The notes under the pieces are model-generated. The model saw nothing but the letters and a program-made list of their open reading frames with translations. It was not told the origin of the DNA and did no database searches. Below are positions 5,234 to 36,595 of a DNA stretch of 36,983 nt, in pieces. The translations under genes were made by a program, and so were the position numbers. Every line of letters begins with the position of its first letter. Position 1 is the first letter of the stretch. This DNA comes from a virus, in IMG/VR virus record IMGVR_UViG_3300028823_000174, positions 1-36,983 of that record. One strand, given 5' to 3'.

Positions 5234-6229
5234 ATGAGTAATAAAGGTTTAGATATTGGAACCAATATGCTCGTAGCTGCTTTTGTAGCTGAGGATGATT
5301 CAATTAAATATAAAATGCAGCGCGATGCTTTTTACACAATAGTTCCAAAATCCCAAGTTAATGAACGAAGCATAAGGGCATCTCTTGAAAAAAGGGGGTC
5401 CAATTTTATTATTAATGGGGAAGGAAATTTTGTGGTCGTCGGAGAAGACGCTCTTGAAATAGCCATCGAACGAAACGATGTGGCAAAAAGACCACTTAGA
5501 AAAGGCGTCCTGTCTCCAAGAGAAAAAGATTCTTTACCGATGTTGAAGCTTATTATAGAAAGTTTAATTGGTAAGGGAGCAGAAGGAGATAAGGTGGTTT
5601 ATTCAGTTCCTGCCCGCCCAGTGGATGGGAATTTTGATATAGTTTATCACACCGAAATGATGAAAGCTTACTTAGGTGGGATGGGCTATGAGGCATACCC
5701 AATAAACGAGGCTTTTGCAATTTCTTTGTCAGAACTTCTTGATGACGGATTAACTGGAATTTGTTTAAGCTACGGCGCTGGAATGACAAATATTGCTGTA
5801 GTTCATCAAGGAGATCCTTTGGTGGAATTTAGCCTCACCCGCGCGGGAGATTACATCGATGAAGCTGTTGGAACAGCATTAGATGTATCTCCAAGTTTAA
5901 TTCAATTAGAAAAAGAAGCCGGTGTGGATTTAATGAATCCAAAGGATAAGATAGGAGAGGCTATATCAGTTTATTATAGCACCTTGATAAACTACACTAT
6001 GAGGAATATATCCTTCGAGCTGGAAAAAAGAAAGAAAGACCTGCCTATTTTTAGAAAAGCTGTTCCAGTTGTAGTTTCTGGGGGATTAACTTTAGCTGAG
6101 GGATTTGTTAAGAAGTTTGAAATTTGTTTGAGTCAACTATCGTTTCCTATTGCAGTAAGCGAAGTAAGAAGAGCAGAAGATCCAATGAGGGCCGTGGCAG
6201 GTGGAGCTCTATTGGCATCTCAATTATAA
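5234..6229 (+). CDS. Actin-like ATPase (MreB/ParM superfamily)
   Basis: A 331-residue protein with the actin/Hsp70 nucleotide-binding landmarks in order: phosphate-1 GLDIGTNMLVAA (5-16), connect-1 around PINEAFAISLSE (156-167, E159 in the place of the MreB catalytic Glu), phosphate-2 LSYGAGMTNIAVV (178-190), adenosine motif VVVSGGLTLAEGF (279-291), and connect-2 near AVAGGALLA (320-328). Family members polymerise into filaments that segregate DNA or organise the cell. Odd point: the phosphate-2 Asp usual in DxGGGT is Ser (S179). The strong GGAGGAGG box lies just before the ATG. The coiled-coil gene upstream is the obvious partner candidate. Confidence 0.85.
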   Translation: MSNKGLDIGTNMLVAAFVAEDDSIKYKMQRDAFYTIVPKSQVNERSIRASLEKRGSNFIINGEGNFVVVGEDALEIAIERNDVAKRPLRKGVLSPREKDSLPMLKLIIESLIGKGAEGDKVVYSVPARPVDGNFDIVYHTEMMKAYLGGMGYEAYPINEAFAISLSELLDDGLTGICLSYGAGMTNIAVVHQGDPLVEFSLTRAGDYIDEAVGTALDVSPSLIQLEKEAGVDLMNPKDKIGEAISVYYSTLINYTMRNISFELEKRKKDLPIFRKAVPVVVSGGLTLAEGFVKKFEICLSQLSFPIAVSEVRRAEDPMRAVAGGALLASQL

Positions 6230-19742: not shown

Positions 19743-20810
19743 ATGGATAAGCGCGAAATGCAAGAACTTTTTAAGGCCACTGCGAATATTGATACGCCTG
19801 AGGGACTTGCAGCATATAAAGCTTTCGCAGCTGCTCTTACTACTCCGATCCTTCAGAAGATTGAGCTGGAATCAATCATGAGAAGACTGTTCGCAGTCGA
19901 GAGATTGGCTCCAGGAGCACAGGCTGTATACCCTGTAGCAGAGGATTTTGAAGTTCCTGTGTGGGTACTGCCTGGACTAGGCTATATGGCACAAAACTTC
20001 ATTGAAGGTATTGGAGAAGAGGTTTATGTCCCAACATTTGCTATCAATGCAAGTGCCGATTGGAAAATCACTTATGCAAGAGACTCTCGTGTAGACATTG
20101 CCCAAAGAGCCGCATCAAGAGTTGCCATGGACATTGCTAATTACGAAGAAGAGTGTGGTTGGAGAGTTATTATGCCAGCTGCTACTTCAGCGTTTTCTGG
20201 TAAAGGTCTATTGGGCTCTCGTCCAGCCCCTATTTATGAAATCGACCCAAGTTCTACTGGCGCAGGATATCTGTCCAAAGAGCTCATCAACAAGATGATC
20301 GTTGGTTTCAAGAGAATAGGCAGGACTCTCACCGATCTCTATATTTCACCTGAGGATGCCGCTGACATTCGTGAGTGGACAGATACAGACATCGACCCAG
20401 TAACAAGACGCGAGATTTTTCAGGCTTCTGGAATGGGTTCGCTGTGGAATGTAGCACTTCATGAGGTACAGCACCTTGGTGCAACCGGTATGTACAACAT
20501 CAACGACGATGGTTCTGCGTTTGGCAAGTTTGTTGCCAGCTCCCATGCGTACAACAGTTACACTATCGACCACGGTAACGTAACTGCCGCTGATGGAACG
20601 GTTAGCACATTGGGTGAGACCCAGATCATGGGTTTTGACTTAAGTGTTAATGACTCTCTTGTTATGCCAATCCGAAAAGAATATCAAGCGCATGACGATC
20701 CAACTCTGCTCCGCGTCCAAAAGGCTGGCTTCTTTGGATGGGCTGAGATTGGCTTTGCTTGTTTAGATTCTAGAATGCTCGGAATGGGCGTTATTGACAG
20801 GTCTCTATAA
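19743..20810 (+). CDS. Major capsid protein (HK97-fold type)
   Basis: A 355-residue protein in the major-capsid position, after scaffold and decoration genes. Features consistent with an HK97-fold subunit are the helical N-terminal arm, the E-loop-like strand region around GAQAVYPVAEDFEVPVWV (58-75), a spine-helix segment (RDSRVDIAQRAASRVAMDIA, about 112-132), and a mixed A-domain with LYISPEDAADIREWTD and a C-terminal AGFFGWAEIGFACLDSR. There is no long N-terminal delta domain, which fits a separate scaffold gene. It is followed by a very stable hairpin, as expected for the most abundant phage message. Confidence 0.88.
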   Translation: MDKREMQELFKATANIDTPEGLAAYKAFAAALTTPILQKIELESIMRRLFAVERLAPGAQAVYPVAEDFEVPVWVLPGLGYMAQNFIEGIGEEVYVPTFAINASADWKITYARDSRVDIAQRAASRVAMDIANYEEECGWRVIMPAATSAFSGKGLLGSRPAPIYEIDPSSTGAGYLSKELINKMIVGFKRIGRTLTDLYISPEDAADIREWTDTDIDPVTRREIFQASGMGSLWNVALHEVQHLGATGMYNINDDGSAFGKFVASSHAYNSYTIDHGNVTAADGTVSTLGETQIMGFDLSVNDSLVMPIRKEYQAHDDPTLLRVQKAGFFGWAEIGFACLDSRMLGMGVIDRSL

Positions 20811-21554: not shown

Positions 21555-22850
21555 ATGGCTAGAAGTTTACTAAGACAATTAGAACAAATTAGACGTGCTG
21601 CTACCTATGATGATGCTATTGCTAATGTTAATACTGCGGCAGTAGCAGAGCCTGTTATTTCAGGTTCATTGGAAGAGGATACCAATGTTATTAGGTCCAT
21701 AATGAAGCAATTCAAAGGGACTACAAATTGGTATGACACCCCAGGTCTTATGTTTGATCCTACCACTACAAACAGTGGTGGAGATTCACTCGTAGACTAT
21801 AACATGGAAAATGTTAGGGGCCATTCTCTTCGTAACAAATCTGTCATCATAGCCGTAGAAGAAGACAATTCTGGCTCTGGTTATACAGTATCCGGTACTT
21901 CTACTGGTACATTAGCTACCATTTCAACAAGATATGCTGGTCAAGATGGTGGTACAGACTGGACAGGTCTTCCAATTTATGCCAGTACAGCCAATGCTGG
22001 TCAGTATCATGATGAAGGCGGAAGCTCCAACGTATGCCGTGTAGACGTTCTTGATATGAGTTCCGGTCAGGAATTTGATGATGGTACTGATATTATTTAT
22101 GCTATGATGTACGACGGCGCCGATTTTGGTGGAGCTGGAGCTGGGACAGACGTATACTTCAGATTCTACAAAAACGGTAACCCATGTGACCTTACAGGTA
22201 CTGGTGTAACCAGCGTAGCATTCGTATATCCACAGAGAAAAAGAATGTCAGACGTTCAAGAGTGGGAATGGCTACGAACAGACTTTGTAAGTTCTTGGGA
22301 AGGTGACGTAGAGCTAACTGAAGACATTTCTAACTTGTGGTCATTTACCGGATCTTCCGATAACACATCTGCTCCTACTTGGACCAACAGTGGTGGAAAC
22401 TGGTCAATCGGAGCAGGTACAGTCGATCTAGAGGGCGGAATAAATGATCTAAATTCTTCTGTTGGCGATATGACATTTACAGAAGATAATTACATCACAG
22501 ATGGATGGTCAGTAGCGGCCTCTTTAGATGCCTTGGATCAGGCTATAAAAGACAACGCTGATGCTATTTCAGCTGCTTCCGCAGCTAAATATGTAGAATC
22601 TCTATCAGCTCAGGCCGATGCTAATACAGTTCATGCCCTACCAGCCGGAGTAACTTACACACCTGATGCTACAGCTGGTCAGGAAGGTAAAAACATGGAC
22701 GTATTCGTAGACGGTCAGTTGCTTGCAGCAGACACTGGCGCTAATGGTGTCAATGCTGACAGAGACTACGGTGAAACCACAGCTTCAGGTATTACCTTTA
22801 GATTTAACGTACAGGCGGGTAGGAACGTAACCTATCTAGTAAGACAATAA
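21555..22850 (+). CDS. Tail-fibre-like structural protein, paralogue A
   Basis: A 431-residue protein. The N-terminal helix SLLRQLEQIRRAATYDD leads to LEEDTNVIRSIMKQFKGTTN, a coiled segment of the kind that trimerises fibres, then beta-rich Gly/Ser/Thr/Asp sequence, and a C-terminal beta domain with NMDVFVDGQLLAADTG. A near-complete second copy forms the last 430 residues of the next gene. Two patches of 50 and 47 bases are identical in both. The likely role is a virion fibre or fibril subunit. AAGGGGGT precedes the ATG. Confidence 0.72.
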   Translation: MARSLLRQLEQIRRAATYDDAIANVNTAAVAEPVISGSLEEDTNVIRSIMKQFKGTTNWYDTPGLMFDPTTTNSGGDSLVDYNMENVRGHSLRNKSVIIAVEEDNSGSGYTVSGTSTGTLATISTRYAGQDGGTDWTGLPIYASTANAGQYHDEGGSSNVCRVDVLDMSSGQEFDDGTDIIYAMMYDGADFGGAGAGTDVYFRFYKNGNPCDLTGTGVTSVAFVYPQRKRMSDVQEWEWLRTDFVSSWEGDVELTEDISNLWSFTGSSDNTSAPTWTNSGGNWSIGAGTVDLEGGINDLNSSVGDMTFTEDNYITDGWSVAASLDALDQAIKDNADAISAASAAKYVESLSAQADANTVHALPAGVTYTPDATAGQEGKNMDVFVDGQLLAADTGANGVNADRDYGETTASGITFRFNVQAGRNVTYLVRQ

Positions 22851-22963: not shown

Positions 22964-25378
22964 ATGGGTGTTAATTATACAAATATAACTTATAATACCA
23001 GTTATCCCACGCCTCCAGCCATCCAAGTAAATAATTTTGACGGAGACCAAACGGTCGATGGGCTTGATGTAGACATATCACTTAAAGGTCCGTCTGGATG
23101 GACGCCAACGCATTATAAGTTGTGGAATATTAATGGAGTCACTACTTCCGGAGCGGCCTCGTGGGTAGCATTCGTAGATGCAGGTGACAATAATATGGAA
23201 GTTGCCAGCCAGACGCTTATAGCACAAGCTGGCAAGCAGTATATATATGGACAATTTCATCATACTGTTTCTGGAACCACAGATACTGTCACCTCTAGCG
23301 GTGTTACATGGTCATGGACCGATCCAATTATCCATTCGTCAGTTGGATGGGTATCAGCGTGGGCAGGTCTAAACTATGGTAGTGCAAGTAGTGCTACGTT
23401 AAGAAACTCAACTTATAATATAGACATAGCATTAAGCAAAACAGGTATTCCACATTTAAGATACGGTGGAAAAGACTTTTCAGATATTAGAGTATCTGGT
23501 AATACAATTCAAGGATCTTCTTCAAGCTATTTAGGTGGCTTGTTAGAAGCTGATGCCAATAATTATATAACAATTACCAAAACTTTCGATACAGATGATA
23601 CTCCACTTGTAAAGGTGGATACTGGTTCTGGATATATAACACTTACCCAGCATGACGGTACAGAAAGAACTGGTCTTGCATCGGGGTATACTGATAGAAT
23701 ATCCAATTATAACTGGAATAGTGGAACTAAAACCCTAACTTTTAGAGTACATAAATTCTCCACTTACGGTTTCTGTACAGTAAACAAGGTAGAATTTACT
23801 GGAGATTCTACAACCGCTGGTTATAATGGAACTTCTATTTCTCTTAAAGTATATGTCCAAGATTCCGCAGGAGAACCCGTAGAAAATGCCCCGGTAACAT
23901 TCTCCGGAATTGCAGGAAGTTCAATTGGTAATTTCTCCGCCAATCCAGTTAACACTGGAGCAGATGGTATTGCAACTGCTACACTTAATCTAACCTCGAT
24001 TGGTAATCAAACATTTGATGCTTATGTAGATAATGTACATACTGACCCAGATCAAGTAACATATTGTATTGAGTTCCCAGCAAACATTGGTAGGAGCTTA
24101 CTACGTCAGTATGAACAAATCAGGCGTACAGGAACATATGATGATGATATTTCCAACGTAAATGATTCAGGTGTAGCTGAGCCTACTGTTACCAGTGGTT
24201 CAGAGTCTCGTTTGGAACATGACATGAATGTTCTTAGAACGATTACAAAACAACTTAAGGGCGGAACTAATTGGTACGATGATCCTGGATTGATGTTCGA
24301 TCCAACCACTACAAATAGTGGTGGGGATAGCCTTGTAACTTACAACGCAGAAAATGTTAGAGGACATTTCTTACGCAATAAAACCGTTCTTATAGCAGTA
24401 GAAGATGATAATTCTGGTTCCGGATATACTACAGCTTCTGGTAATGCTGGTATTTTAAATACTAATATTACAACAGCGTATGCTACCTGGGCTAATAGAA
24501 CTGGAGTTCCAATTTTCTCTAGCGCGACTGGAAATTATCCAGATGAAGGCGTCAGCGACAATGTATGTGCAATTGACTTGATAGATACATCCACCGGAGC
24601 AGAATTTGTTGATTCTGGTGGCCATATTATTTATGGTAAATTCCATGATGGAGCAGATTATGGTGGAGCCGGAAATGGAACAGATGTATATATCAAATTC
24701 TATTCTGATGGAAATCCATATACATTTGAAGCTGGAGATCCTACCAACATCATGATAATTTATCCATTGAGAAAAAGAATGTCTGATATGAATGAATGGG
24801 AATGGACTAGAACAGACTTTGTAAGTTCATTTGAAGGCGACGATGAACTAATAGAGGACATTGAGGATTTATGGTCATTTACTGGAGCAACAAATAATGA
24901 CACGTCTCCTACTTGGACCAACAGTGGTGGAAACTGGTCAATCGGAGCAGGTACAACCGATTTAGAAGGCGGAATAAATGACATTAATGCTTCTATTGGT
25001 GACATGACATTTACAGAAGATAATTACATCACAGATGGATGGTCAGTAGCATCCTCTTTAGATGCATTAGATCAAGCTGTAAAGGATAATGCTGACAATA
25101 TTGGAGATTTTTCTGCGGCTATATATGTTGAGGAGCTAGCAGGAGATATTCCAGCAGGAACTTTACATCAATTATCATTTAATTATACTCCAGAAGATGC
25201 CCTAGGCCGCGAAGGGCAGAATATGGACGTTTTTGTTGATGGTCAGTTAATGGCTGCCAGCACTGGTGTTAATGGTGCCGCTGCAGACAGAGACTACGCA
25301 GAAACTACTACTTCAGGTATTACTTTTCACATGGACTTGCACCAAGAATCCAACATCACCTATAGGGTGAGGATGTAA
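22964..25378 (+). CDS. Fibre protein with Ig-like domain plus paralogue B
   Basis: An 804-residue protein of two halves. Residues 1-275 are beta-rich and unlike the neighbours. Residues about 275-370 look like a Big-1/invasin Ig-like domain (SISLKVYVQDSAGEPVENAP, TGADGIATATLNL). Residues about 373-804, starting GRSLLRQYEQIRR, are a paralogue of the whole preceding protein, including NWYDDPGLMFDPTTTNSG and NMDVFVDGQLMAAS. Ig-like domains often decorate phage surfaces and help adhesion. The gene looks like a fusion of an adhesin head to a duplicated fibre gene. AAGGAGG precedes the ATG. Confidence 0.75.
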   Translation: MGVNYTNITYNTSYPTPPAIQVNNFDGDQTVDGLDVDISLKGPSGWTPTHYKLWNINGVTTSGAASWVAFVDAGDNNMEVASQTLIAQAGKQYIYGQFHHTVSGTTDTVTSSGVTWSWTDPIIHSSVGWVSAWAGLNYGSASSATLRNSTYNIDIALSKTGIPHLRYGGKDFSDIRVSGNTIQGSSSSYLGGLLEADANNYITITKTFDTDDTPLVKVDTGSGYITLTQHDGTERTGLASGYTDRISNYNWNSGTKTLTFRVHKFSTYGFCTVNKVEFTGDSTTAGYNGTSISLKVYVQDSAGEPVENAPVTFSGIAGSSIGNFSANPVNTGADGIATATLNLTSIGNQTFDAYVDNVHTDPDQVTYCIEFPANIGRSLLRQYEQIRRTGTYDDDISNVNDSGVAEPTVTSGSESRLEHDMNVLRTITKQLKGGTNWYDDPGLMFDPTTTNSGGDSLVTYNAENVRGHFLRNKTVLIAVEDDNSGSGYTTASGNAGILNTNITTAYATWANRTGVPIFSSATGNYPDEGVSDNVCAIDLIDTSTGAEFVDSGGHIIYGKFHDGADYGGAGNGTDVYIKFYSDGNPYTFEAGDPTNIMIIYPLRKRMSDMNEWEWTRTDFVSSFEGDDELIEDIEDLWSFTGATNNDTSPTWTNSGGNWSIGAGTTDLEGGINDINASIGDMTFTEDNYITDGWSVASSLDALDQAVKDNADNIGDFSAAIYVEELAGDIPAGTLHQLSFNYTPEDALGREGQNMDVFVDGQLMAASTGVNGAAADRDYAETTTSGITFHMDLHQESNITYRVRM

Positions 25379-26624: not shown

Positions 26625-27371
26625 ATGATCATTTTAAGAAAACCAGGCAGACGAATAATAACCGTTATAATAGCCGACGAAATCGGAGGCGTACGAGACG
26701 GTAGTAACCAGGTTTTCACTACAACATATGATTATGAGCCACACAGAATTAATTTCTTTTATAATGGTCAGGCACTTCATAGTCCAGATGATTTCGACGA
26801 AACAGGGTCTAATGAGATAACTCTCAAATACATTTATCCAGATGATACTGATGAATTGAGAGCTGACTATGAAATGTTGGGCGGAACCACGACATCTGGA
26901 AATGATCATGGTTTATTAATAGGCCTTCTTGATGATGATCATCCACAATACCATACAAACGCCCGTGGTGATGCCCGCTATTATACTCAACCAATAGTTG
27001 ATGCTAAACTGGCCGCGCAGGACGAATTTATAGAATTATTAGACACACCAACAACTTACAGCGGAAGCGAAGGGAAATATGTCACGGTCAAAAGTGACGG
27101 GACTGGGTTGGAATTTAGCAGTGTTGGTGTAGAGCAGGCTGGTATAGAGGATATAGCCAATGGAGCGTCTTCGGTAAACGTAACATTTGGTTCGTCTTTT
27201 GCAAATACGAACTACATAGTTACGTTGGGTTTACAAAACACAGTGGCAGAATCAAAATCTGTTTATGCTATGCTTATTTCTAACAAAACAACTGCTGGAT
27301 TTACTGTGCTTTTTTCAGGAGATATGGATTCATCGAATTACAAATTGAATTGGATTGCTAAAGCTAGCTAG
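26625..27371 (+). CDS. Tail-fibre protein with DTPxTYSG module and lectin-like end
   Basis: A 248-residue protein with four parts. Residues 20-85 are a phage beta sandwich (DGSNQVFTTTYDYEP, FYNGQALHSPDDFDETGSN). Residues 93-120 carry DHGLLIGLLDDDHPQYH, a known fibre motif. Residues 134-166 are the ELLDTPTTYSG ... GLEF module. Residues 170-248 form a beta domain (VTFGSSFANTNYIVTL ... FTVLFSGD, NWIA) that resembles H-type lectin repeats and is shared with the next gene. A binding role on the virion is likely. The ribosome-binding site (TAAGGGA) is weaker than for its neighbours. Confidence 0.75.
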   Translation: MIILRKPGRRIITVIIADEIGGVRDGSNQVFTTTYDYEPHRINFFYNGQALHSPDDFDETGSNEITLKYIYPDDTDELRADYEMLGGTTTSGNDHGLLIGLLDDDHPQYHTNARGDARYYTQPIVDAKLAAQDEFIELLDTPTTYSGSEGKYVTVKSDGTGLEFSSVGVEQAGIEDIANGASSVNVTFGSSFANTNYIVTLGLQNTVAESKSVYAMLISNKTTAGFTVLFSGDMDSSNYKLNWIAKAS

Positions 27372-27388
27372 CAAGGAGGTAAAGATTA

Positions 27389-28105
27389 ATGGCTAAATTT
27401 CAAGATAAACATCTAAAGTTAAGGGATAATCAGAGGGCATATTTTGGTGATAGCGATGATTGTAGTATTTGGTTTGATGGATCTCAGTTGCGTGTGTCCT
27501 GTACTGTTAGTGGTGTTTATCCTACTCAAAGTTATCATCTTACAACTAGACAATATGTAGATGAACTTGAGTTTTTAGATTTAAATGATACACCAGCTAC
27601 ATATTCTGGATTTGGTGATTATTTGGTTGTTGTAAATGCTGGAGAAACCGGCCTAACGTTTACATCTGTAAGTGGACTAAACATTTTAATGGACCACGGT
27701 CTTTTAGACGGTTTAGGAGACGATGACCATCTACAGTATGTTAGAGCCGACGGCGGCGTAAATGATACTAGAGGCTTTACTGCTACTGTTAGTGGTATTT
27801 ATCCAACAGCGTGGTTCCATTTAACAACCAAACAATATGTAGATGAAAGAACACGCGATCACAGAACAGGTAGAGTCGCATTGGCGCTAGATGATGATAG
27901 AAAAAGTGTTACTTTTGCTACGCCGATGTCAGATACCAACTATAGTCTGAGCGTAATCATGAGAAATTTTGTAGATGACATTAAAGATAAGTCTATTTAC
28001 GCTATGATTATAACTGGAACTACAGTAAGTGGGTTTGATGTATTATTTTCAGGTGATATAGATTCTAACAATTATTATTTGGATTATGTCGCCGCATCAG
28101 ATTAA
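27389..28105 (+). CDS. Tail-fibre protein, same family with internal repeat
   Basis: A 238-residue protein. Residues 1-35 (FQDKHLKLRDNQRAYFGDSD) are shared with the next gene. SGVYPTQSYHLTTRQYVDE (41-59) recurs as SGIYPTAWFHLTTKQYVDE (135-153). The DTP module is at 62-94 (FLDLNDTPATYSG ... GLTF), followed by DHGLLDGLGDDDHLQY. Residues 160-238 are the same lectin-like end as in the previous gene. It is clearly a mosaic relative of both neighbours. AAGGAGGT precedes the ATG. Confidence 0.75.
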   Translation: MAKFQDKHLKLRDNQRAYFGDSDDCSIWFDGSQLRVSCTVSGVYPTQSYHLTTRQYVDELEFLDLNDTPATYSGFGDYLVVVNAGETGLTFTSVSGLNILMDHGLLDGLGDDDHLQYVRADGGVNDTRGFTATVSGIYPTAWFHLTTKQYVDERTRDHRTGRVALALDDDRKSVTFATPMSDTNYSLSVIMRNFVDDIKDKSIYAMIITGTTVSGFDVLFSGDIDSNNYYLDYVAASD

Positions 28106-28125
28106 AAAATTTTAAGGAGCTATAG

Positions 28126-28917
28126 ATGGCTAGATTTAAAGGTAAAGACCTATATTTAAATGATGATGATCAGGTCTATCTTGGAGACAACCACGAGGCA
28201 GCCCTGTGGTATGCGCAAAATGAGTTGCGTTTAGATCATACTATCAGTGGAACTTGGGCTACCCAGGGCTACCACTTGGTTCGTAAAGATCAATTACCCG
28301 ACGAGTTCCTGGATTTTATAGATACTCCAGCAACTTATTCTGGCTATGGCGGTGAATATGTAAGAGTTAAAACAGATGAAACTGGTTTAGAATTTTATAC
28401 ACCACCAACAGGAAGCGGAATAAACTATCAAACTATTGCGCCAGGTGCATATATACTTGGAACAAACAAACCAGGTTTTGAGGTTTTAGGTCCTATAGCA
28501 GGTCTGGCCTTTGATGACAGCCGACAAGAAGAGGTTTATGGAAGCCTCACAATACCAGGTGATATAAAATCTGGTAATGATATGTTAGTATGGTTGGATT
28601 ATTTTAATGACGGCGCACAAGTAGGTACAAACACATGTATTTGGAAAATAGATTATCATACGTATAGCCATGGAGAAAATTATAGCGCGAAGACCACAAC
28701 GACAATATCAGTTAATAGCGTATTGCCAAACAATGCAGCAGCAGGTACAGAACTAAGAGCTACTTTGACATTATCTTATAATGATGCTAATAACCCATTG
28801 ACCAAAAATATAATTACTTTCAGGTTGTATAGAGATGGTACAAATGCATCAGACACTATGACTGATGATGCGGTTTTGGTACAAACTACAGTTAAAGCAA
28901 TAACGGAGAGTATATAA
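28126..28917 (+). CDS. Tail-fibre protein, same N-terminus with a different end
   Basis: A 263-residue protein. The first 95 residues match the previous gene in order (FKGKDLYLNDDDQVYLGDN, then SGTWATQGYHLV, then FLDFIDTPATYSG ... GLEF). From about residue 110 it carries a different beta domain (GLAFDDSRQEEVYGSLTIP, then MLVWLDYFNDGAQVGTN, CIWKIDYHTYSHGE) found at the ends of other phage fibre proteins. It likely binds or trimerises. Its stop overlaps the next ATG (TAATG). Confidence 0.75.
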   Translation: MARFKGKDLYLNDDDQVYLGDNHEAALWYAQNELRLDHTISGTWATQGYHLVRKDQLPDEFLDFIDTPATYSGYGGEYVRVKTDETGLEFYTPPTGSGINYQTIAPGAYILGTNKPGFEVLGPIAGLAFDDSRQEEVYGSLTIPGDIKSGNDMLVWLDYFNDGAQVGTNTCIWKIDYHTYSHGENYSAKTTTTISVNSVLPNNAAAGTELRATLTLSYNDANNPLTKNIITFRLYRDGTNASDTMTDDAVLVQTTVKAITESI

Positions 28918-29543
28918 TGGGTATATTTACGCCTTTATTATCAGAAGACACTTTTATAGGGCTGCTCGATACACCAACTACATATAGCGGCGGCCACCAT
29001 AAATATACCAAAGTTAAAGATGACTTTTCCGGATTGGAATTTGCCTACGCTTTGGCTGGTGTTACGTCTAGTGGAACAACTCCTCCAGATCACAATGAAA
29101 CACATTTATGGTATAATTCACATCCTGATTGGAATATGTTTTTTATATGGGATGTCGGCCGGCAAAAATGGTTAAGTATGGCAAAACAGAATTATCTTTT
29201 TGCATATGGTGGTTCTGTAGATGGTGCTTATGTATCTATAGGAAATGTAACTGACTCTTCTGCATATTATTATATTCCTAGAACTGCTACTATAACAGCT
29301 ATAATGGCTTCTGAGGCTACGAGCGGTGGTAGCGAGCCAACTAAAGAATTTGAACTTCAGAATGCTGGTGTGGCAATAGCTGGTGGATATTTTAAAATGT
29401 CAAATTATGAATATTTTGATTTAAGTACGGACATTGATTTAGACGATGGTACACAATTGCAGCTATATGCATATAAGGAAGGAGCGGGTTCTAAAAACCC
29501 AATCATTATGCTTGAATTATCATGGAGGTATCCAACACCATGA
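28917..29543 (+). CDS. Fibre cassette copy 1, first gene
   Basis: A 208-residue protein. The DTP module is near the start (FIGLLDTPTTYSGGHHKYTK ... GLEF, 13-44), then a linker with HLWYN and WDVGRQKWLS, then a beta domain (GAYVSIGNVTD, TATITAIMAS, EFELQNAGVAIAGG, LELSWRYPTP). The same architecture is found in the gene at 30993. Its last codons include TGGAGG, which serves as ribosome-binding site for the next gene, overlapping by ATGA. Confidence 0.72.
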   Translation: MGIFTPLLSEDTFIGLLDTPTTYSGGHHKYTKVKDDFSGLEFAYALAGVTSSGTTPPDHNETHLWYNSHPDWNMFFIWDVGRQKWLSMAKQNYLFAYGGSVDGAYVSIGNVTDSSAYYYIPRTATITAIMASEATSGGSEPTKEFELQNAGVAIAGGYFKMSNYEYFDLSTDIDLDDGTQLQLYAYKEGAGSKNPIIMLELSWRYPTP

Positions 29544-30976
29544 CTTTAATAGCTAGAAATACAACGGCTAGTGGAGTATCTATAGCAGACCTTTCTGGAT
29601 TTGTTTTTGATCCTTATGAGGAAAGAGATCTTAGTGTATATTTCAGCAAAGCTAAATTATCAGAATCAGAAGATTTGGATAATTTTATTCAAGCAGGCAT
29701 AATTGTTTTGAATGACGGCGAAGAAGATTTGCCCACCTCTGAGGCTTTGACACAAACAGAACTTAGAACACATCGCGAGGAAGATATCCGTTTTATGCCG
29801 TTTGCTGGTGGCACATTTACTGGCGATGTATTTATGGGCCCCAATACTATTTCTGGGACACCGGGTTCTCATCTTTATATGTCTAATCTTTCTGGATTTA
29901 ATTATAATATTACAGGACTTCCTCATGATAGCTTTATAAGTTTGACAGATACTCCTCCAACTTATGAAGGTTTAAGCGATTTATTTGTTAGAGTCAATGC
30001 TTCTGAAACGGCGCTTAAATTTGTGCCAGTTGGATTTCTTGATTTGTATGATACTCCTGCTACATACAGTGGATATGAGGGACATATATTAGCTGTTAAT
30101 GCAGGCCAAACGGGTTTTGAATATGTAGCGCCACCACCAACATCGTTTTTAGATTTAATAGATACGCCAGATACTTATAATTACACTGGTGAGAGTCAAT
30201 ATCTAAAAGTAAAAAATGATAAAACTGGATTAGAATATACAACTATAAGTGGATTCGATTATTCAATTATTATAAACAGCCTAACGTGGCAAGGGACTCC
30301 AACCTACGATGGAGATATACATATATTAGGATGGCATGAAAGAATATATAATGTGCCACCACACGATGTTGAAGATCCATTTAGTCTGTCCAGTGGAGGG
30401 ACCGTAGATTCTCCAGAAAAACTTTTTCACACACATGCAGTTGTTGATATATTGACAACAACCTCTACGCCTTTTACGCTTACAATAAGTGGAACAACAG
30501 TAGATGAAGCTTCGGGTATATATTCGAAAGACTCAGAGAACATAACAGTAACAGGAACCGGATATTATCAGTCAGGTAAATCTTTTGTAGATGAGCCAGA
30601 GTTTAAAATAGCGGAAGCAACCAAATCTTGTACTTTTGATTTATATAGAACAACCTATTGGGATGCTGGAAACAGTAATTTTACAGTAAGAGGATGTATA
30701 TTTGAATGGACACCAGATCAACCAAACTGGCTTGTGGATGTAAAAATATGTCACATTCGCGCCGATGGAAGTCGACACGAGATAGATAGCATAGTCTTTG
30801 ATAAAGACGATACGTACACTAGAGCCGATGACTCCGAATCAGGTAAGTACAAAAGAACTGATTATAATTATCATATATATTCCGCTACCGCAGATGAGGG
30901 CATTATGATATGCATGAATCAGCGCGGAATAGGAAACTATTATTTTGAATTAAAATATAGTTTTATGACTTCTTAA
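29540..30976 (+). CDS. Fibre cassette copy 1, second gene with three DTP modules
   Basis: A 478-residue protein. The start at 29540 is chosen because it gives an ATGA overlap with a GGAGG box 11 bases upstream and aligns with the start of its paralogue at 31678 (TLIARNTTASG versus QVIVKNNTASG); an in-frame ATG at 29522 would add six residues. The middle holds three consecutive DTP modules (about 131-235). The C-terminal half (SLTWQGTPTYDGDIHILGWH, ITVTGTGYYQSG, CTFDLYRTT, FEWTPDQPNW) matches the paralogue at 31678. A virion fibre or adhesin role is likely. Confidence 0.75.
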   Translation: MTLIARNTTASGVSIADLSGFVFDPYEERDLSVYFSKAKLSESEDLDNFIQAGIIVLNDGEEDLPTSEALTQTELRTHREEDIRFMPFAGGTFTGDVFMGPNTISGTPGSHLYMSNLSGFNYNITGLPHDSFISLTDTPPTYEGLSDLFVRVNASETALKFVPVGFLDLYDTPATYSGYEGHILAVNAGQTGFEYVAPPPTSFLDLIDTPDTYNYTGESQYLKVKNDKTGLEYTTISGFDYSIIINSLTWQGTPTYDGDIHILGWHERIYNVPPHDVEDPFSLSSGGTVDSPEKLFHTHAVVDILTTTSTPFTLTISGTTVDEASGIYSKDSENITVTGTGYYQSGKSFVDEPEFKIAEATKSCTFDLYRTTYWDAGNSNFTVRGCIFEWTPDQPNWLVDVKICHIRADGSRHEIDSIVFDKDDTYTRADDSESGKYKRTDYNYHIYSATADEGIMICMNQRGIGNYYFELKYSFMTS

Positions 30977-30992
30977 TTGGAGGTTCTAAATA

Positions 30993-31667
30993 GTGGAAAG
31001 AATAGATAAATTTTGTAGAATTCCTGGACATAGTGAAGATATAGATCACTATTTTATCCATCAAGAGGATACTCCAACAACTTATAGTGGCCACGCGGGT
31101 GAAATGATTGTTGTTAAATCAGATCATAGTGGGTTAGAATTTGGAACTGTGAGCGGAACAGGAACAGGTATTGTAAGAAAATATCCAGCGCCCCCAACTA
31201 GCGACCATTATTGGCACAACTTAAATGACAACAGATTATATGGCTATGATGAAAGTTGTGGTCTGTGGCTAACTACAAATAGAATTGCATATGGATTTGC
31301 AAAAAACACATTGAATTTTAAAGGTGCTTATGTTTCATATGGAGAAACAAACCAAGCTTCTACCGGACCTCTCGTCCCACACCCGGCTAGAATTGTGGGT
31401 ATATATGGTAGAAACGACCTTGCATCCCCAACAAGACAAATAGAGTTACATGATTTTACAACAACTATTAAAACGATAGGTTGGCCAAATAAAAACTTAT
31501 ATTGGACAGAGGGTTTAAATGTTAATGCGGGCGCTATTTTGAAAATTAAAGCGAAATCTTCAAATAATGATAGGTTAGATTATCCAGTTATTTATATAGA
31601 AATAGCATATAGATACGACCCAACCTGGGACGGAACTTTACCTGATGGAAATGATTTAGGAGCGTAA
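30993..31667 (+). CDS. Fibre cassette copy 2, first gene
   Basis: A 224-residue protein starting at GTG behind TGGAGGT. The DTP module is near the start (EDTPTTYSGHAGEMIVVK ... GLEF), followed by a linker with HYWHNLNDNRLYGYD and a beta domain (KGAYVSYGETNQ, ARIVGIYGRNDL, QIELHDFTTTIKTIG, VIYIEIAYRYDP) that matches the gene at 28917. It is the second copy of a duplicated two-gene cassette. Confidence 0.72.
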   Translation: MERIDKFCRIPGHSEDIDHYFIHQEDTPTTYSGHAGEMIVVKSDHSGLEFGTVSGTGTGIVRKYPAPPTSDHYWHNLNDNRLYGYDESCGLWLTTNRIAYGFAKNTLNFKGAYVSYGETNQASTGPLVPHPARIVGIYGRNDLASPTRQIELHDFTTTIKTIGWPNKNLYWTEGLNVNAGAILKIKAKSSNNDRLDYPVIYIEIAYRYDPTWDGTLPDGNDLGA

Positions 31668-31677
31668 TGGAGGAAAA

Positions 31678-32703
31678 ATGTATCAAGTAATAGTAAAAAA
31701 CAACACTGCTTCTGGAATTTATATAAATGATTTGGGTGGTTATTATATAGCAGCATCTGAATCGGATGATGTGGCAGAAGTATTTAATCCATACGAAATA
31801 TCTATATCCCATAATTTGGCTGACATGGTTGCGTCTTCCGCTGTGACCATAAATAATGGTGCAGAAGATCTAGATATAGAACCCGCACTGTTACATATAG
31901 GAGTTAAAGATTCTTTTAGATCTTTACTTGATACCCCAACCACATATGTTGGAGCAGCACCTAAAGCTGTGAAAGTAAACCCAACAGAAACTGGTGTGGA
32001 TTTTGTTCAGGAATATAAACAGATGTCTTGGCATAAAACTATTACTTATAATGGTCGCTCAAGATTAGTTGGTTGGTATATAGACGAAGCAGACGATGTG
32101 TATTTACAAAGTGATGGACCTATACAACCATCTTCTCAATATTCTAATAATTCATTTTTTGTAATGAATATGACAAGTGTATCCGGAGCACCATTTACAG
32201 TCACTATTAGTGGAACATCAATGAGTGATATTACATTTTCCACATATGAGTGTATAGATAGTATAACAGTTACAGGTACAGGATATTACAAAACTAATTA
32301 TAGGTTTGTCAATACGCCATCTTTTTCAATTCCAGAAGATAATAAATCTTGTATATTTGATTTGAAAAAAACTAATCCGTTTTCTTTTGGTGGCACTAAA
32401 GTTTCTGTTCAGAGAATTCGTTTAGAGTGGGTTCCTGACGGAGAGGATTGGGAATTAGTTGGGAGTGCTTTGCATATACATGCTAATGGATATGCTCACG
32501 AGTTGATGGGAGGTCCATATATTTTTTCTTCTGAAGATATATATTTGAGAGCATCTCAAGATGAGCCAGGAATATTTGATGTTAGTGTGTTTGGAGCAGA
32601 AGCATATGTAGATGGTTCCATTGGGGAAGGAACAGTTATACGTTTTGATTCTACTTTTATAGGGGCACTTACTCTTATGTTGTGGTACAAGGAGGCTGTA
32701 TAA
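31678..32703 (+). CDS. Fibre cassette copy 2, second gene
   Basis: A 341-residue paralogue of the gene at 29540. The N-terminal 75 residues (QVIVKNNTASGIYINDLGGY, then VTINNGAEDL) align with it; only one DTP module is present (SLLDTPTTYVGAAPKAVK, about 81-110) where the paralogue has three. The C-terminal half (MSWHKTITYNGRSRLVGWY, ITVTGTGYYKTNYRF, CIFDLKKTNPFS, LEWVPDGEDWEL) is shared. GGAGG precedes the ATG. Confidence 0.73.
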   Translation: MYQVIVKNNTASGIYINDLGGYYIAASESDDVAEVFNPYEISISHNLADMVASSAVTINNGAEDLDIEPALLHIGVKDSFRSLLDTPTTYVGAAPKAVKVNPTETGVDFVQEYKQMSWHKTITYNGRSRLVGWYIDEADDVYLQSDGPIQPSSQYSNNSFFVMNMTSVSGAPFTVTISGTSMSDITFSTYECIDSITVTGTGYYKTNYRFVNTPSFSIPEDNKSCIFDLKKTNPFSFGGTKVSVQRIRLEWVPDGEDWELVGSALHIHANGYAHELMGGPYIFSSEDIYLRASQDEPGIFDVSVFGAEAYVDGSIGEGTVIRFDSTFIGALTLMLWYKEAV

Positions 32704-32706
32704 ATA

Positions 32707-33267
32707 ATGACATATCCATTTAAATATAAATTTATACCAAATGTTCCAACGCATGATATTGATATGGAGCATAGATTTTGGCGTCTTATAGACACTCCTA
32801 CAACCTATAGTGGATATGGAAAAGATTTTGTAACGGTAAAAGAAGATGAATCTGGTTTAGAATTTACGGATTTATTTACTGTTGTAAGTGGTTTTATGTT
32901 TTTCAAAGAAGTCTCTGATGATACCATGTCTACTACAACAAGTACACAGTGGCAAGAAAAAGTGTCTTTAGAAATATTTGATATTCCAGCAGGAAGATAT
33001 AGAATTGGATGGTTCTATGAATGGCAAATGAGAGGTGGCTCATTTAATTTTAATTGCAGGGTTCGAGTAGATGATGCAACTAATTTAATGGAGCAGGTGC
33101 AAGAACCAGCTGATTCTGCATCTGGATTATGGCATCCAGTTGGTGGTTTTGGTTATATTACTTTAGCGGCTGGGGGTCATCATGCCGACTTAGATTTTTG
33201 TTCTAGTTTTATAGACAAAGAGGCTTGTATAAGAAGAGGCCGCTTGGAGTTTTGGAGGATTTCATAA
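32707..33267 (+). CDS. Fibre protein with DTP module and WRIS-ended beta domain
   Basis: A 186-residue protein. The N-terminal 55 residues carry a DTP module (RLIDTPTTYSGYGKDF ... GLEF), followed by a beta domain (KVSLEIFDIPAGRYRIGWFY ... HPVGGFGYI ... LEFWRIS) shared with the next gene, which has a different N-terminus. This is a clear domain swap. Codons for the final Trp-Arg-Ile form GGAGG, and the stop overlaps the next ATG (TAATG). Confidence 0.7.
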   Translation: MTYPFKYKFIPNVPTHDIDMEHRFWRLIDTPTTYSGYGKDFVTVKEDESGLEFTDLFTVVSGFMFFKEVSDDTMSTTTSTQWQEKVSLEIFDIPAGRYRIGWFYEWQMRGGSFNFNCRVRVDDATNLMEQVQEPADSASGLWHPVGGFGYITLAAGGHHADLDFCSSFIDKEACIRRGRLEFWRIS

Positions 33268-33899
33268 TGGCTGAAAGATATAGATATTCAATACTAAATG
33301 ATTTTCCAAATTCTATGGTAAATACATCTATGCTAACTATAGAAATAAAGGAAAGCAGTATTTCTGAGACACTGTCACATATAAATACATGGAGTGATAA
33401 CTGCGATATTTGGTTTGATTCTGCTTTAACTTCCCCAGACGAAACAGAATTAGACGAGATAGTGGCTACACATTCTGGAACTGAACCAACCGAAGAGTTG
33501 TATTTCCCAGCAAATTGTTATGCATATGCAGAAGCATTAGATGAATCATCTACCACAAGTACAGATTTTGTAGAGAAACTTAGCCTTTCCGTAAAAGATG
33601 TCCCCCCTGGAATATATAGAATAGGATGGTCTTTTGAATGGTCTTTTTCTGTTACACTTTTTCAAGATTTTTTAGCCAGGGTTCAATTTAATAATACTTT
33701 TACGTTGTCAAATTTAAAAATACAACCTAGAAACTGTTATGCTGATGACGCCTGGCAGCATGTAGGTGGTTTTGCAAAAATGGAAATAGACACTTTGGGT
33801 GATTATGATATAGATTTAGATTTTGCTACTACCGGTGGAATTCCACCTAGGGCGTCATATATAAGAAATGCCAGACTAGAACTTTGGAGGATTTCGTAA
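33267..33899 (+). CDS. Fibre protein with a shared N-terminal module and the same end
   Basis: A 210-residue protein if started at the ATG at 33267, which overlaps the previous stop (TAATG) and follows a GGAGG box by eight bases; an alternative in-frame start 14 codons upstream lies inside the previous gene and is less likely. The N-terminal 70 residues (SILNDFPNSMVNTSMLTIEI, DNCDIWFDSALTSPDETEL, VATHSG) recur in the next gene. The C-terminal domain (KLSLSVKDVPPGIYRIGWSF ... LELWRIS) recurs from the previous gene. Confidence 0.68.
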   Translation: MAERYRYSILNDFPNSMVNTSMLTIEIKESSISETLSHINTWSDNCDIWFDSALTSPDETELDEIVATHSGTEPTEELYFPANCYAYAEALDESSTTSTDFVEKLSLSVKDVPPGIYRIGWSFEWSFSVTLFQDFLARVQFNNTFTLSNLKIQPRNCYADDAWQHVGGFAKMEIDTLGDYDIDLDFATTGGIPPRASYIRNARLELWRIS

Positions 33900-34762
33900 T
33901 GGCTAATAAATATACATACTCATTAGATGATTTTCCATATGACAAAGCAGATGGAAGCAGATTGAGTTTAGAAATTCAATCAAGTGCAATTGTTACCGCT
34001 TTAAATCACATAAATGTTGGAAAAAATAATTGTGATGTATGGTTTAAAGCAGAACTATCATCAGGCGATGAAACAATATTGGATGGATTAGTTGCTGCTC
34101 ATAGTGGAGAAGTGCTTCCTGAAGAAGCTGCACCAACAATGTCGGATGGTAGGCCATTAGTTAGAGCCGATACACGTCCTTTAGAAACACAGACGTATTT
34201 TACCATGTCTGGTGATACTGTTAGTGGTATTGGAGATGGAAAAATATTAAAATGGAATTTTGCACACGACGAAGATGTTTATGATTCAAATGATTACGAA
34301 AATGGTCCAACAGTAGTCAGCGGTATGAAATGTAAAGTTATGGAGGTGTGGTTTAATGATCCTGTTTATCTAAAAGACGGTTCTTTATATTTTCAAAACG
34401 CCAGTTTTGGATCTTATGTCTGTATGTATATAACAGTTCCGGCTGGAAATTATTATCCTAATGATGCAGGGCCAATACCAGCTTCTGCGTTAGGGCTGCC
34501 CGGCGACCAGATGTATGCTTATGCGTCTAAAAAGGTATTATATGCATGTTATGTCATGAAGCACCATATGGTGGGGGATTGTACTATGGGTGATGAGTTA
34601 AACGCCGAAGGTGCCCAAGTAGACGCTATACCAGCCGGTTGGTATATAACTGGTATAATTTGTACGGATGAAGATAATAATAATTTTAGAGGTTTTGGTT
34701 CTCTTGAAATGTATAGAGCACACACAGTGGTACTTCCAGGAGGAGCACCAGGAGGCGAATAA
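33899..34762 (+). CDS. Fibre protein with the shared N-terminal module and a new C-terminus
   Basis: A 287-residue protein starting at the ATG at 33899 (TAATG overlap, GGAGG eight bases upstream; a TTG frame start 15 bases earlier is less likely). Residues 1-70 (YSLDDFPYDKADGSRLSLEI, NNCDVWFKAELSSGDET, VAAHSG) match the N-terminus of the previous gene. The rest is a beta-rich domain unique in this window (VMEVWFNDPVYLKDG, YVCMYITVPAGNYYP, GWYITGIICTDED). It ends in a Gly/Pro-rich tail whose GGAGG codons provide the next ribosome-binding site. Confidence 0.68.
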   Translation: MANKYTYSLDDFPYDKADGSRLSLEIQSSAIVTALNHINVGKNNCDVWFKAELSSGDETILDGLVAAHSGEVLPEEAAPTMSDGRPLVRADTRPLETQTYFTMSGDTVSGIGDGKILKWNFAHDEDVYDSNDYENGPTVVSGMKCKVMEVWFNDPVYLKDGSLYFQNASFGSYVCMYITVPAGNYYPNDAGPIPASALGLPGDQMYAYASKKVLYACYVMKHHMVGDCTMGDELNAEGAQVDAIPAGWYITGIICTDEDNNNFRGFGSLEMYRAHTVVLPGGAPGGE

Positions 34763-34763
34763 A

Positions 34764-35294
34764 ATGATAGAAACTGCCGATATACTTTTGACAACATCAA
34801 AAACTAGGCTCGGTAGAATTATCATATGGATATTGAGGATCTTTCAATCTGATCCCGTTTTCTTTAATCATTGTATTTTAGCGGCCAACAATAAATTTGG
34901 TATAGAAGCTGCTACTAGTGGTATTCAATATTGTGATATGCGCAAAAAAATGGAGGCCGCAAAAGCTTATAAGCTTATAAGATGTAAGTGTATAACCGAC
35001 GCTAAAAAAGAAAATATAGTTAAATCAACTAGAAAACTTGTTGGTTTACCTTATGGATTTAGAAGATTGGGATTACAATTATTAGATCAAATGTTTTCAA
35101 CCGACTTCTTCACGCGCAAGTTAGGTGATAATAGATGTCAGGTATGTTCAAGTTTAATAGCCTGGGCATACTATGTCAGATGTAGAGTTAGATTTAATGG
35201 TGTCAACTGGCAGAGCTGTGAACCAGACGATGTAGACGACGAAGTTTTAAAAAACCCAGATATATGGGAAGTTGTTGCTGAGAAGAGGGGATAA
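34764..35294 (+). CDS. Permuted papain-fold hydrolase (C92/YiiX-like)
   Basis: A 176-residue protein; the ATG at 34764 follows AGGAGG and is preferred over a longer frame running into the previous gene. The pattern matches permuted NlpC/P60 or YiiX-like enzymes: a DILLTTSKT start, H36 in FFNHCILA, an acidic/strand region GIEAATSGIQ, then LVGLPYGFRRLG and the nucleophile C128 in CQVCSSLIAWAYY. A hydrophobic stretch at 17-27 (LGRIIIWILRIF) may contact membrane. Such enzymes act on peptide, amide or lipid-like ester bonds. Among fibre genes it may help entry or lysis. Confidence 0.65.
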   Translation: MIETADILLTTSKTRLGRIIIWILRIFQSDPVFFNHCILAANNKFGIEAATSGIQYCDMRKKMEAAKAYKLIRCKCITDAKKENIVKSTRKLVGLPYGFRRLGLQLLDQMFSTDFFTRKLGDNRCQVCSSLIAWAYYVRCRVRFNGVNWQSCEPDDVDDEVLKNPDIWEVVAEKRG

Positions 35295-36595
35295 TGGCTA
35301 GAAGCAAACTAAGAGAAAATCAGGTACAAGACGTAGATTTTTTGTCTGAGGCAGAGCACGCTACTACTTCACATACGTTTGGAGCTCTTACTGACGTGCC
35401 AGCTCTTAGTGGAAACGAAGGAAAATATCTACGCATCGATTCTACAGCCTCAGGTATTGAATATGTTACCATAGATGATAGTGTTGGTATATGGAAAAAA
35501 ATTTCGTCAGACTACACTGCGTCTGTTGGAGATAATTTATTTTTGGATAGCACGGTGGCTGGCATAGTAATAACCATGCCGTCTAATCCGGTTATGGGGA
35601 GCGCCGTAGCTTTTATAGATGGAGAGGGTAATTGTGCTACTAATAACATTACAATCTCCGGCGCCGGCGCCAAAATAATGGGCTTAGACGAAAACTTTAT
35701 AGTAGACGTTGATAGTGCAGAATTCAACCTAGTCTATTACGAATCAGATGACGGGTGGAGGCTTGGCCCAATAGGACACAATATAGGACTCAGAGCAGGA
35801 GATGTTCTTGTAGATCGCGGAGATCCAGCAGACTATGATTTTACGGTTGGTGATTTTACATGTGATAGTGCCTACCACGATTTAGATTTGTCATCAATAG
35901 TTCCATCAGGGGCTACATGGGTAAAAGTTAAAGTTGTACTCGCAGATGATGCTGTTGACTCGTATTTTGCGCTTAGAAAAAATGGGAATACAAATACAAG
36001 GGTTTCACTTTCAAATAGAATTAGAGTTGTAGATAAAACGCATTATATTACGGGGTTTGTGCCTTGTGATTCAAACAGAGTTATTGAGTACTCAGCTACA
36101 AACACTACATTCACCACTATAAACCTAGTAGTTACAGGATGGGTTTTTCCTGGTTCGGTTAACGACGCATTGAAAACAGACGGAACAGCGGGGAGAGTTT
36201 ATCGTGCCTGTTATATATGTATAAAAGATGGAACAAACGCAAACACAATAAACTGTGAGGTGTTTAGTCGTTTCAACGGTGACATTATAGCCGAAACAGA
36301 TAATATTGTAAAAGATGCTACAACAGGGCACTTTACGTTAGATTCTACTGGACATTTTCTTTATATTGAATCTACAGGCCTTACTGGAAATACATTGCAT
36401 GCAATGGGCTGCCTTATATATGCGGATATCGGAATTGCAACTCCTATTTGTCAAGTGAAGAGAGATGAGAGTAGTGGCGGCTTGCGTATCAACCTCACAG
36501 ATCCAATCACAGGCGATATATATGATTTTACGTCGCTTGTAGATAACGAAACTGGTTATATATATATTGATTTTTTCTATTTAACAGATGAATAA
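35294..36595 (+). CDS. Large fibre/adhesin protein with a divergent DTP-like module
   Basis: A 433-residue protein. The start overlaps the previous stop (TAATG). Residues 28-58 carry a divergent version of the module (ALTDVPALSGNEGKYLRID ... GIEY). Residues 60-165 form a beta-helix-like receptor domain (FLDSTVAGIVITMPSNP, NNITISGAGAKIMG), and residues 190-433 two further beta domains (WVKVKVVLADDAVDSYFALR, HYITGFVPCDSN, YIYIDFFYLTDE). It is probably a fibre tip or shaft protein. Confidence 0.72.
   Translation: MARSKLRENQVQDVDFLSEAEHATTSHTFGALTDVPALSGNEGKYLRIDSTASGIEYVTIDDSVGIWKKISSDYTASVGDNLFLDSTVAGIVITMPSNPVMGSAVAFIDGEGNCATNNITISGAGAKIMGLDENFIVDVDSAEFNLVYYESDDGWRLGPIGHNIGLRAGDVLVDRGDPADYDFTVGDFTCDSAYHDLDLSSIVPSGATWVKVKVVLADDAVDSYFALRKNGNTNTRVSLSNRIRVVDKTHYITGFVPCDSNRVIEYSATNTTFTTINLVVTGWVFPGSVNDALKTDGTAGRVYRACYICIKDGTNANTINCEVFSRFNGDIIAETDNIVKDATTGHFTLDSTGHFLYIESTGLTGNTLHAMGCLIYADIGIATPICQVKRDESSGGLRINLTDPITGDIYDFTSLVDNETGYIYIDFFYLTDE

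Follow-up and report, generated by a model that had tools for sequence, protein, structure and literature searches.

Short repeated units are known from the fibers of phage T4. The repeats of gp34 (residues 744-776, 780-812 and 823-868) and a unit of gp12 (182-215) comprise about 33-46 residues and belong to trimeric fibers (PMC5537660). They are re-used in more than one fiber protein, can be stacked, and share a conserved glycine and an S/T-P (PMC5537660). XD domains are another known element, by which a single virion anchors several kinds of spike (PMC8825819). Here we analyzed IMG/VR virus record IMGVR_UViG_3300028823_000174 (36,983 bases, classed linear, from an environmental sample; the whole stretch is called the window below), in which a short module with the motif DTPxTYSG, the DTP module, recurs in a cluster of putative fiber genes. 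The module already occurs in known phages as part of phrog_11660; it has no curated Pfam or NCBIfam name. In our view, phage fiber proteins probably (roughly 60%) use this small, mostly beta element as a spacer and junction unit.

Copies, conservation and predicted fold of the module

Scanning all six frames for the motif, and searching with a profile derived from the copies, revealed 11 DTP modules in nine genes, all on the plus strand within 27,024-35,473. The initial annotation had proposed about 11 occurrences in nine genes, and all 11 were where it had put them. The profile matched exactly these 11 places in the record and none besides (E values from 1.4e-20 to 4.5e-15 with the hidden Markov model). 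In order, the copies are at 27024-27125 (E = 2.3e-20), 27569-27670 (3.7e-18), 28303-28404 (1.4e-20), 28950-29048 (4.4e-19), 29930-30031 (1.5e-17), 30035-30130 (4.0e-19), 30143-30247 (5.5e-18, with one extra turn residue), 31050-31151 (1.3e-19), 31912-32010 (1.0e-17), 32773-32871 (3.2e-20) and 35375-35473 (4.5e-15).

In a leave-one-out analysis, each held-out copy was recovered by a profile built from the remaining ten (domain E from 2.3e-17 to 6e-8). The copy at 31050, for example, was found at E = 7.4e-12, with the match beginning at codon 31065. The weakest result was that of the copy at 35375 (E = 0.0033, the best non-module match being at about 2). A failure of the copies to align in a profile, which the initial annotation had named as evidence against its reading, did not occur. 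The copy at 35375, in the gene starting at 35294, had been described as a changed form and reads DVPALSG. Its orthologs in two related contigs (L020 and L021; related contigs are cited by L or G numbers) have the canonical DTPTTYSG at the same position, which marks it as a true, if diverged, copy.

A near-identical contig (L019/G001, 99.2% over 15.8 kb) also carries eleven copies. The DNA identity among the window copies has a median of about 55%, and the best pair reaches 70%. The copies therefore diverged long ago, and recent duplication was ruled out as their origin.

We collected 219 module copies less than 80% identical to each other. The module is about 33-34 residues long, with the core F-x-x-L-x-D-[TVA]-P-x-x-Y-x-G...V-x-V...G-L-E-F; the motif of the initial annotation is thus present, while its length of 35 residues and its fixed core needed revision. 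Conservation among the 219 copies was 92% at F2, 96% at L5, 98% at D7, 80% at T8, 99% at P9, 95% at Y/F12, 86% at G14, 95% at V22, 77% at G28, 73% at L29, 78% at E30 and 94% at F31.

The protein of the gene at 26625 was modeled with AlphaFold2 from an alignment that combined window and locus sequences in 76 rows. Its module-free relatives were trimmed to their N domains, since whole proteins put the head on the module columns. The mean predicted local distance difference test score (pLDDT) was 82.2 and the predicted template modeling score (pTM) 0.42. In the model, the module forms two short turns followed by strands 152-155 and 162-165, which make a beta-hairpin (block pLDDT 64-86). The model is a monomer and does not directly address the oligomer state. 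Each copy would comprise tight turns (F-x-x-L-x-DTPxxYxG) and then a beta-hairpin (KxVxV...GLEF). A model of the three-module protein (29540), made with no alignment, had a pLDDT of 32.6 and was discarded.

Neither Pfam nor NCBIfam has a model that matches the module in the window proteins, L035, L067, phiCbK or CcrBL9. A sequence search of solved chains in PDB, up to E = 10, gave no meaningful match to the module; profile matches to designed beta-trefoils and uteroglobin covered only 10-15 residues and were meaningless. The motif was not found in print in the literature searched. For the fiber motif LSDVD...DGQ...W-P, a possible relative, a made-up consensus had no solved match; the comparison remains a lead.

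Optional presence of the module

The module is optional within otherwise similar proteins. In the family of the 26625 protein, the N domain is joined straight to the head in L053, L176 and L217, and only a second short module, DDDHPQYH, stands between the two in L212. L046 has the DTP module, the window and L020 have both modules, and L050 and L056 have two DTP modules between N domain and head. Similarly, the two domains that flank the module in L045:6107 are joined straight to each other in the window gene at 33225. Tandem copies have a period of mostly 34-43 residues, and as many as 29 copies are found in a single 4,680-codon protein of L035; therefore, the module stacks. Being absent, single, double or 29-fold, it appears to act as a spacer and joint.

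The module is dispensable in two protein types (26625 and 33225), which argues against an essential trimerizing or docking element there. The initial annotation had suggested a common docking or trimerizing knot. This is unproven. Module-free relatives keep the same N domain and head, so the 26625 type does not appear to require the module for trimerization or attachment, and its N domain resembles known attachment domains of fibers. As a knot, the module would act like a foldon, nucleating folding and bringing three chains into register. Its small size, beta-rich structure, near-invariant D, P and aromatic positions and location in fiber-like proteins favor this reading. On the other hand, the two protein types just named have natural module-free versions, the heads resemble lectin domains of trimeric fibers and could trimerize themselves, and tandem runs would be redundant. 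We regard a knot as quite improbable.

A docking role, in which the DTP unit is a common plug that joins short fiber proteins to the virion or to one another and many heads share one socket, deserves somewhat more weight, although we still think it unlikely. In four window genes (28917, 30993, 32707 and 35294), the module begins no more than about 30 residues into the protein, and no other N domain precedes it. Among module-bearing proteins, 23/126 have their first module this close to the start, and such module-first proteins have a short leader only. In L071, the leader MIILRK runs straight onto the module, and the whole N domain is missing. Nevertheless, many proteins have a separate attachment-like domain ahead of the module, it is missing from close relatives that match in N domain and head, and giant proteins hold 10-29 copies, largely in tandem, which is not plug-like use.

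Position of the module at domain junctions

We compared 39 module-bearing fiber proteins from the window and twelve related contigs, using unmasked alignments, an edge tolerance of 6 residues and 500 random placements. Of 159 internal homology ends, 73 mapped to a far module edge in each of the two proteins, compared with a random mean of 0.49 and a maximum of 4. Earlier variants of the count were set aside because tandem arrays inflate raw counts and masking the module can itself end alignments. Single-linkage clusters of the proteins lumped unrelated heads together and do not enter any of the counts. Judging from these alignments, the junction lies at the module.

Individual cases agree with the claim of the initial annotation that the module links varied N- and C-terminal domains, and the combinations vary between related phages. 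The head of the 28917 protein stands behind another, MAKF-type N domain in L088 and L045, with homology from the module onward (residues 11 vs 79 and 9 vs 77); this N domain is of the type found in window gene 28126. The genes at 28126 and 27389 have one module each, and their counterparts in L046 and L034 have two, with an extra stretch or domain in between. The genes at 29522 and 31678 have their N domain and head in common, with three modules in the former and one in the latter, and homology restarts exactly at the last module (residue 79 in the 31678 protein vs 208).

The concentration of homology breaks at module edges and the extra domains found between two copies would also be expected if the conserved stretch were a DNA-level recombination site for head swaps without a special structural role. 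The identity among copies, with a median of about 55% and a maximum of 70%, is low for homologous recombination, and the conservation of protein positions in 219 diverse copies points to selection on the protein. Breaks also occur without the module, as between window gene 33884 and L045:9327, which have a common head behind different N parts. Of the alternatives, we give this one the least credence.

If the module is a spacer and junction unit, at least one copy would separate the N-terminal anchor on the virion from the C-terminal, cell-surface-binding portion, and copies stacked head to tail would make a longer shaft. As the junctions would be alike, domains exchanged or inserted at module edges would still fit. 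The phage lineage would have distributed the unit over nine neighboring genes with at least four head types. The module would presumably assemble as a homotrimer, and the gene products may be virion proteins that are displayed jointly. Phage host range shifts largely through fiber-head swaps, and a short, recognizable joint common to very different phages would mark where swaps are tolerated. It would also help to explain nine fiber genes with mixed heads in one genome.

Spread among phages

The gene at 29540 matched phrog_11660 ('tail protein') at E = 5.6e-20 over the module stretch, and six other window genes matched it over the same stretch at E from 1.1e-7 to 8e-4. A single-sequence tblastn search revealed the module in at least 88 of 50,697 phage records, including phages of Caulobacter, Brevundimonas, Vibrio, Cellulophaga, Sphingobium, Ruegeria, Sinorhizobium and other hosts. 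In annotated records, it is in tail or other, often hypothetical, proteins. phiCbK gp317 has nine copies and CcrBL9 eleven, both recovered with the module profile; phi38:1 has four, and Lacusarx, ICP2 gene 14 and VCPH have a single copy each. Similar sequences in other phages, mentioned in the initial annotation, were thus found in phrog_11660, phiCbK, CcrBL9, phi38:1, ICP2 and many IMG/VR contigs.

From one IMG/VR scan, 75 module loci were kept. The window has nine separate module genes, L046 seven, L034 five, L089 and L082 four, L045, L020 and L021 three, and the rest one or two. The copy number of the window is ordinary; its spread over nine genes is rare but recurring, mainly among relatives. 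The high density noted in the initial annotation therefore holds for the number of genes and not for the number of copies, as one IMG/VR protein has 29. The module is a simple search key for unannotated fiber proteins in metagenomes. A curated family model, of which there is none in Pfam or NCBIfam, is warranted.

Architecture of the fiber genes

All genes described in this section are on the plus strand. Gene 1 (26625-27371) encodes an attachment-like N domain, a DDDHPQYH module, a DTP module and an H-type-lectin-like head. The N domain (residues 12-85, 26658-26879) was compared with solved structures by VIA-align and resembled the XD domain of CBA120 TSP4 (7rfv, Z 7.9, 2.3 Å over 64 residues) and the N terminus of T7 gp17 (7boz_b, Z 7.4, 2.7 Å over 66 residues); 7ey9_a also matched at Z 7.4. 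Nearly all of its fold matches were phage attachment or tail proteins, with Z below 8. The DDDHPQYH module (residues 94-126, 26904-27002) reads DDDHPQYHTNARGDARYYT, and its motif is in dozens of IMG/VR fiber proteins.

In the same VIA-align comparison, the C-terminal head of gene 1 (residues 168-248, 27126-27368) matched the receptor-binding domain (RBD) of the Pam1 tailspike (7eea_B, Z 8.7, 2.1 Å over 69 residues), LKA1 gp49 (Z 8.3, 2.7 Å over 77 residues), Helix agglutinin and the R1 pyocin fiber (Z 7.6 each), with H-type lectins at Z 7.5-7.6. It also scored 24.0 bits (E = 5.8e-5) with Pfam Gp53-like_C (PF21882), just under the cut-off of 24.9. The Pfam near-miss and the predicted fold point the same way, to a lectin-like beta sandwich.

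Gene 2 (27389-28105) has a MAKF-type N domain, a DTP module, a DDDH module and a lectin-like head, and gene 3 (28126-28917) has a MAKF/MARF-type N domain, a DTP module and an unassigned head. Gene 4 (28917-29543) starts with an 11-residue leader and gene 6 (30993-31667) with a 20-residue leader; in both, a DTP module and a head of the same family follow. Gene 5 is given here as 29522-30976. The initial annotation had placed its start at 29540, and the gene and its three DTP modules were borne out; they stand in tandem between an N domain and the head shared with gene 7. Gene 7 (31678-32703) has a gene 5-type N domain, one DTP module and a gene 5-type head. Gene 8 (32707-33267) comprises a 23-residue leader, a DTP module and a head in common with 33225. 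Gene 9 (35294-36595) comprises a 28-residue leader, the changed DTP module, a fiber domain (phrog_972 tail fiber, E = 2.4e-6) and a C-terminal part.

Two neighbors are module-free. In 33225-33899 (likely start 33270), an N domain is joined straight to a gene 8-type head; 33884-34762 has an N domain as in 33225 and a different head. Head types are paired within the cluster (26625/27389, 28917/30993, 29522/31678 and 32707/33225), and the nine genes carry at least four of them.

Two further observations were made in the cluster. The second fiber module, DHGLL.GL.DDDHPQYH...DARYYT, occurs twice (26904-27002 and 27680-27796), is widespread, and is optional in the 26625 family. A YaeF/YiiX-type papain-like amidase (PF05708) was weakly matched, below the cut-off, at 34668-35294.

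Uncertainties and virion location

Several points weigh against a spacer and junction role. The pTM of the 26625 monomer was 0.42, and a Z score of about 8 can arise from nothing more than a common arrangement. The alignments behind the breakpoint count are non-independent, and all the proteins were selected for carrying the module. As the conserved module pulls alignments to its own edge, they do not locate the crossover point. Some proteins have only a leader of 6-29 residues ahead of the module, so the module or the leader must do more there. Finally, in longer relatives the fiber region is between the capsid gene and a gene starting MARNRIIYASQSVW, which may encode a tail-tube protein, ahead of the tape measure. 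Placement at the tail tip is not secure because the cluster lies between capsid and putative tail-tube genes. From gene order, the gene products may be located on the tail, neck or shaft.

It is also conceivable, although we would be surprised, that the module is both socket and spacer. The module-first proteins (28917, 30993, 32707 and 35294) would plug onto the module runs of their longer neighbors and build a branched nine-protein appendage with heads exchangeable gene by gene. Such appendages could decorate the neck or shaft of an unusually long tail, not its tip. Neck or shaft placement would fit the tape-measure frames of relatives, which exceed 7,000 codons, together with the position of the cluster between head and putative tail-tube genes.

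Related phages and neighboring genes

Among nine longer relatives, five had a tape-measure domain and none had a sheath domain. The PhageMin_Tail tape-measure domain is in uninterrupted frames of 7,224-8,053 codons without a sheath domain (G013:C1:32459-56618, L232/L233; G005:C1:64278-87558, L234/L235; also G004, G020 and G021). Tape measures specify about 0.15 nm of tail length per residue. At this ratio, the frames would give a tail of more than 1 micrometer, longer than that of P74-26. The P74-26 tail, almost a micron in length, has been described as the longest known (PMC10034513).

The capsid gene (19743-20810) is unusually conserved beside the very variable fiber region. Its protein matched 154 IMG/VR relatives, with identities of about 79% or higher for the top 80, so capsid relatives at this level are common. 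When 33 of the capsid relatives were scanned over their whole length (E = 0.001), the DTP module was missing from 21, many of which are fragmentary records. It seems that the module expansion belongs to a sub-lineage. The capsid gene is also on three contigs of bacterial metagenome-assembled genomes (Fermentibacteria, WOR-3 and Geobacteraceae bins), which may be mis-binned phage. Adjoining the capsid gene, 22964-25378 contains a copy of gene 21555-22850 behind an N-terminal region that includes an Ig-like Big_1 domain. The two are about 69% identical in DNA over 1.3 kb, and by this similarity they represent a gene duplication.

At 5234-6229, the window has a close homolog of the archaeal actin volactin (PF25216, E = 4.5e-63). 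Homologs above the family cut-off were found in 13/17 related phage records, the window included (G003-G026), so that an actin is apparently among the core genes of these phages. In L227 (363-2459, minus strand; G010:C1:33800-36600), an insert of roughly 370 residues splits the volactin-like gene without breaking its frame. The insert starts with CLVPGTKI, ends with IHN before CG and has the LAGLIDADG-like motifs GYFLGDGS and LLAGLIRSDGS; it looks like an intein.

Comparison with known systems

The likeness to XD domains concerns the N domain of the 26625 protein and not the DTP module. Its predicted fold is like those of CBA120 TSP4 and T4 gp10 XD and the T7 gp17 N-terminal domain (Z 7.4-7.9, identity 15-16%). 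Similarly, the likeness to H-type lectin heads (Helix agglutinin, Pam1 RBD, AP22 gp53 and the R-pyocin fiber tip; Z 6.8-8.7) is limited to the predicted fold of the 26625 head, which may bind a sugar.

For the module itself, the closest known proteins are those of phrog_11660 (phiCbK gp317 and its Dolichocephalovirinae relatives), which have the same module by profile. In gp317, which is virion-associated according to its record, an F5/8-type (discoidin) domain stands between two of the nine copies. The phrog_11660 proteins hold all copies in one protein of 1,400-1,600 residues, whereas the window has them in nine short proteins. The T4 gp34/gp12 repeats hold a short helix and were not matched in sequence by the DTP profile, so the comparison with them is an analogy only. 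In this sense, the DTP module is a widespread unnamed instance of the short stackable fiber units that the T4 gp34/gp12 repeats exemplify.

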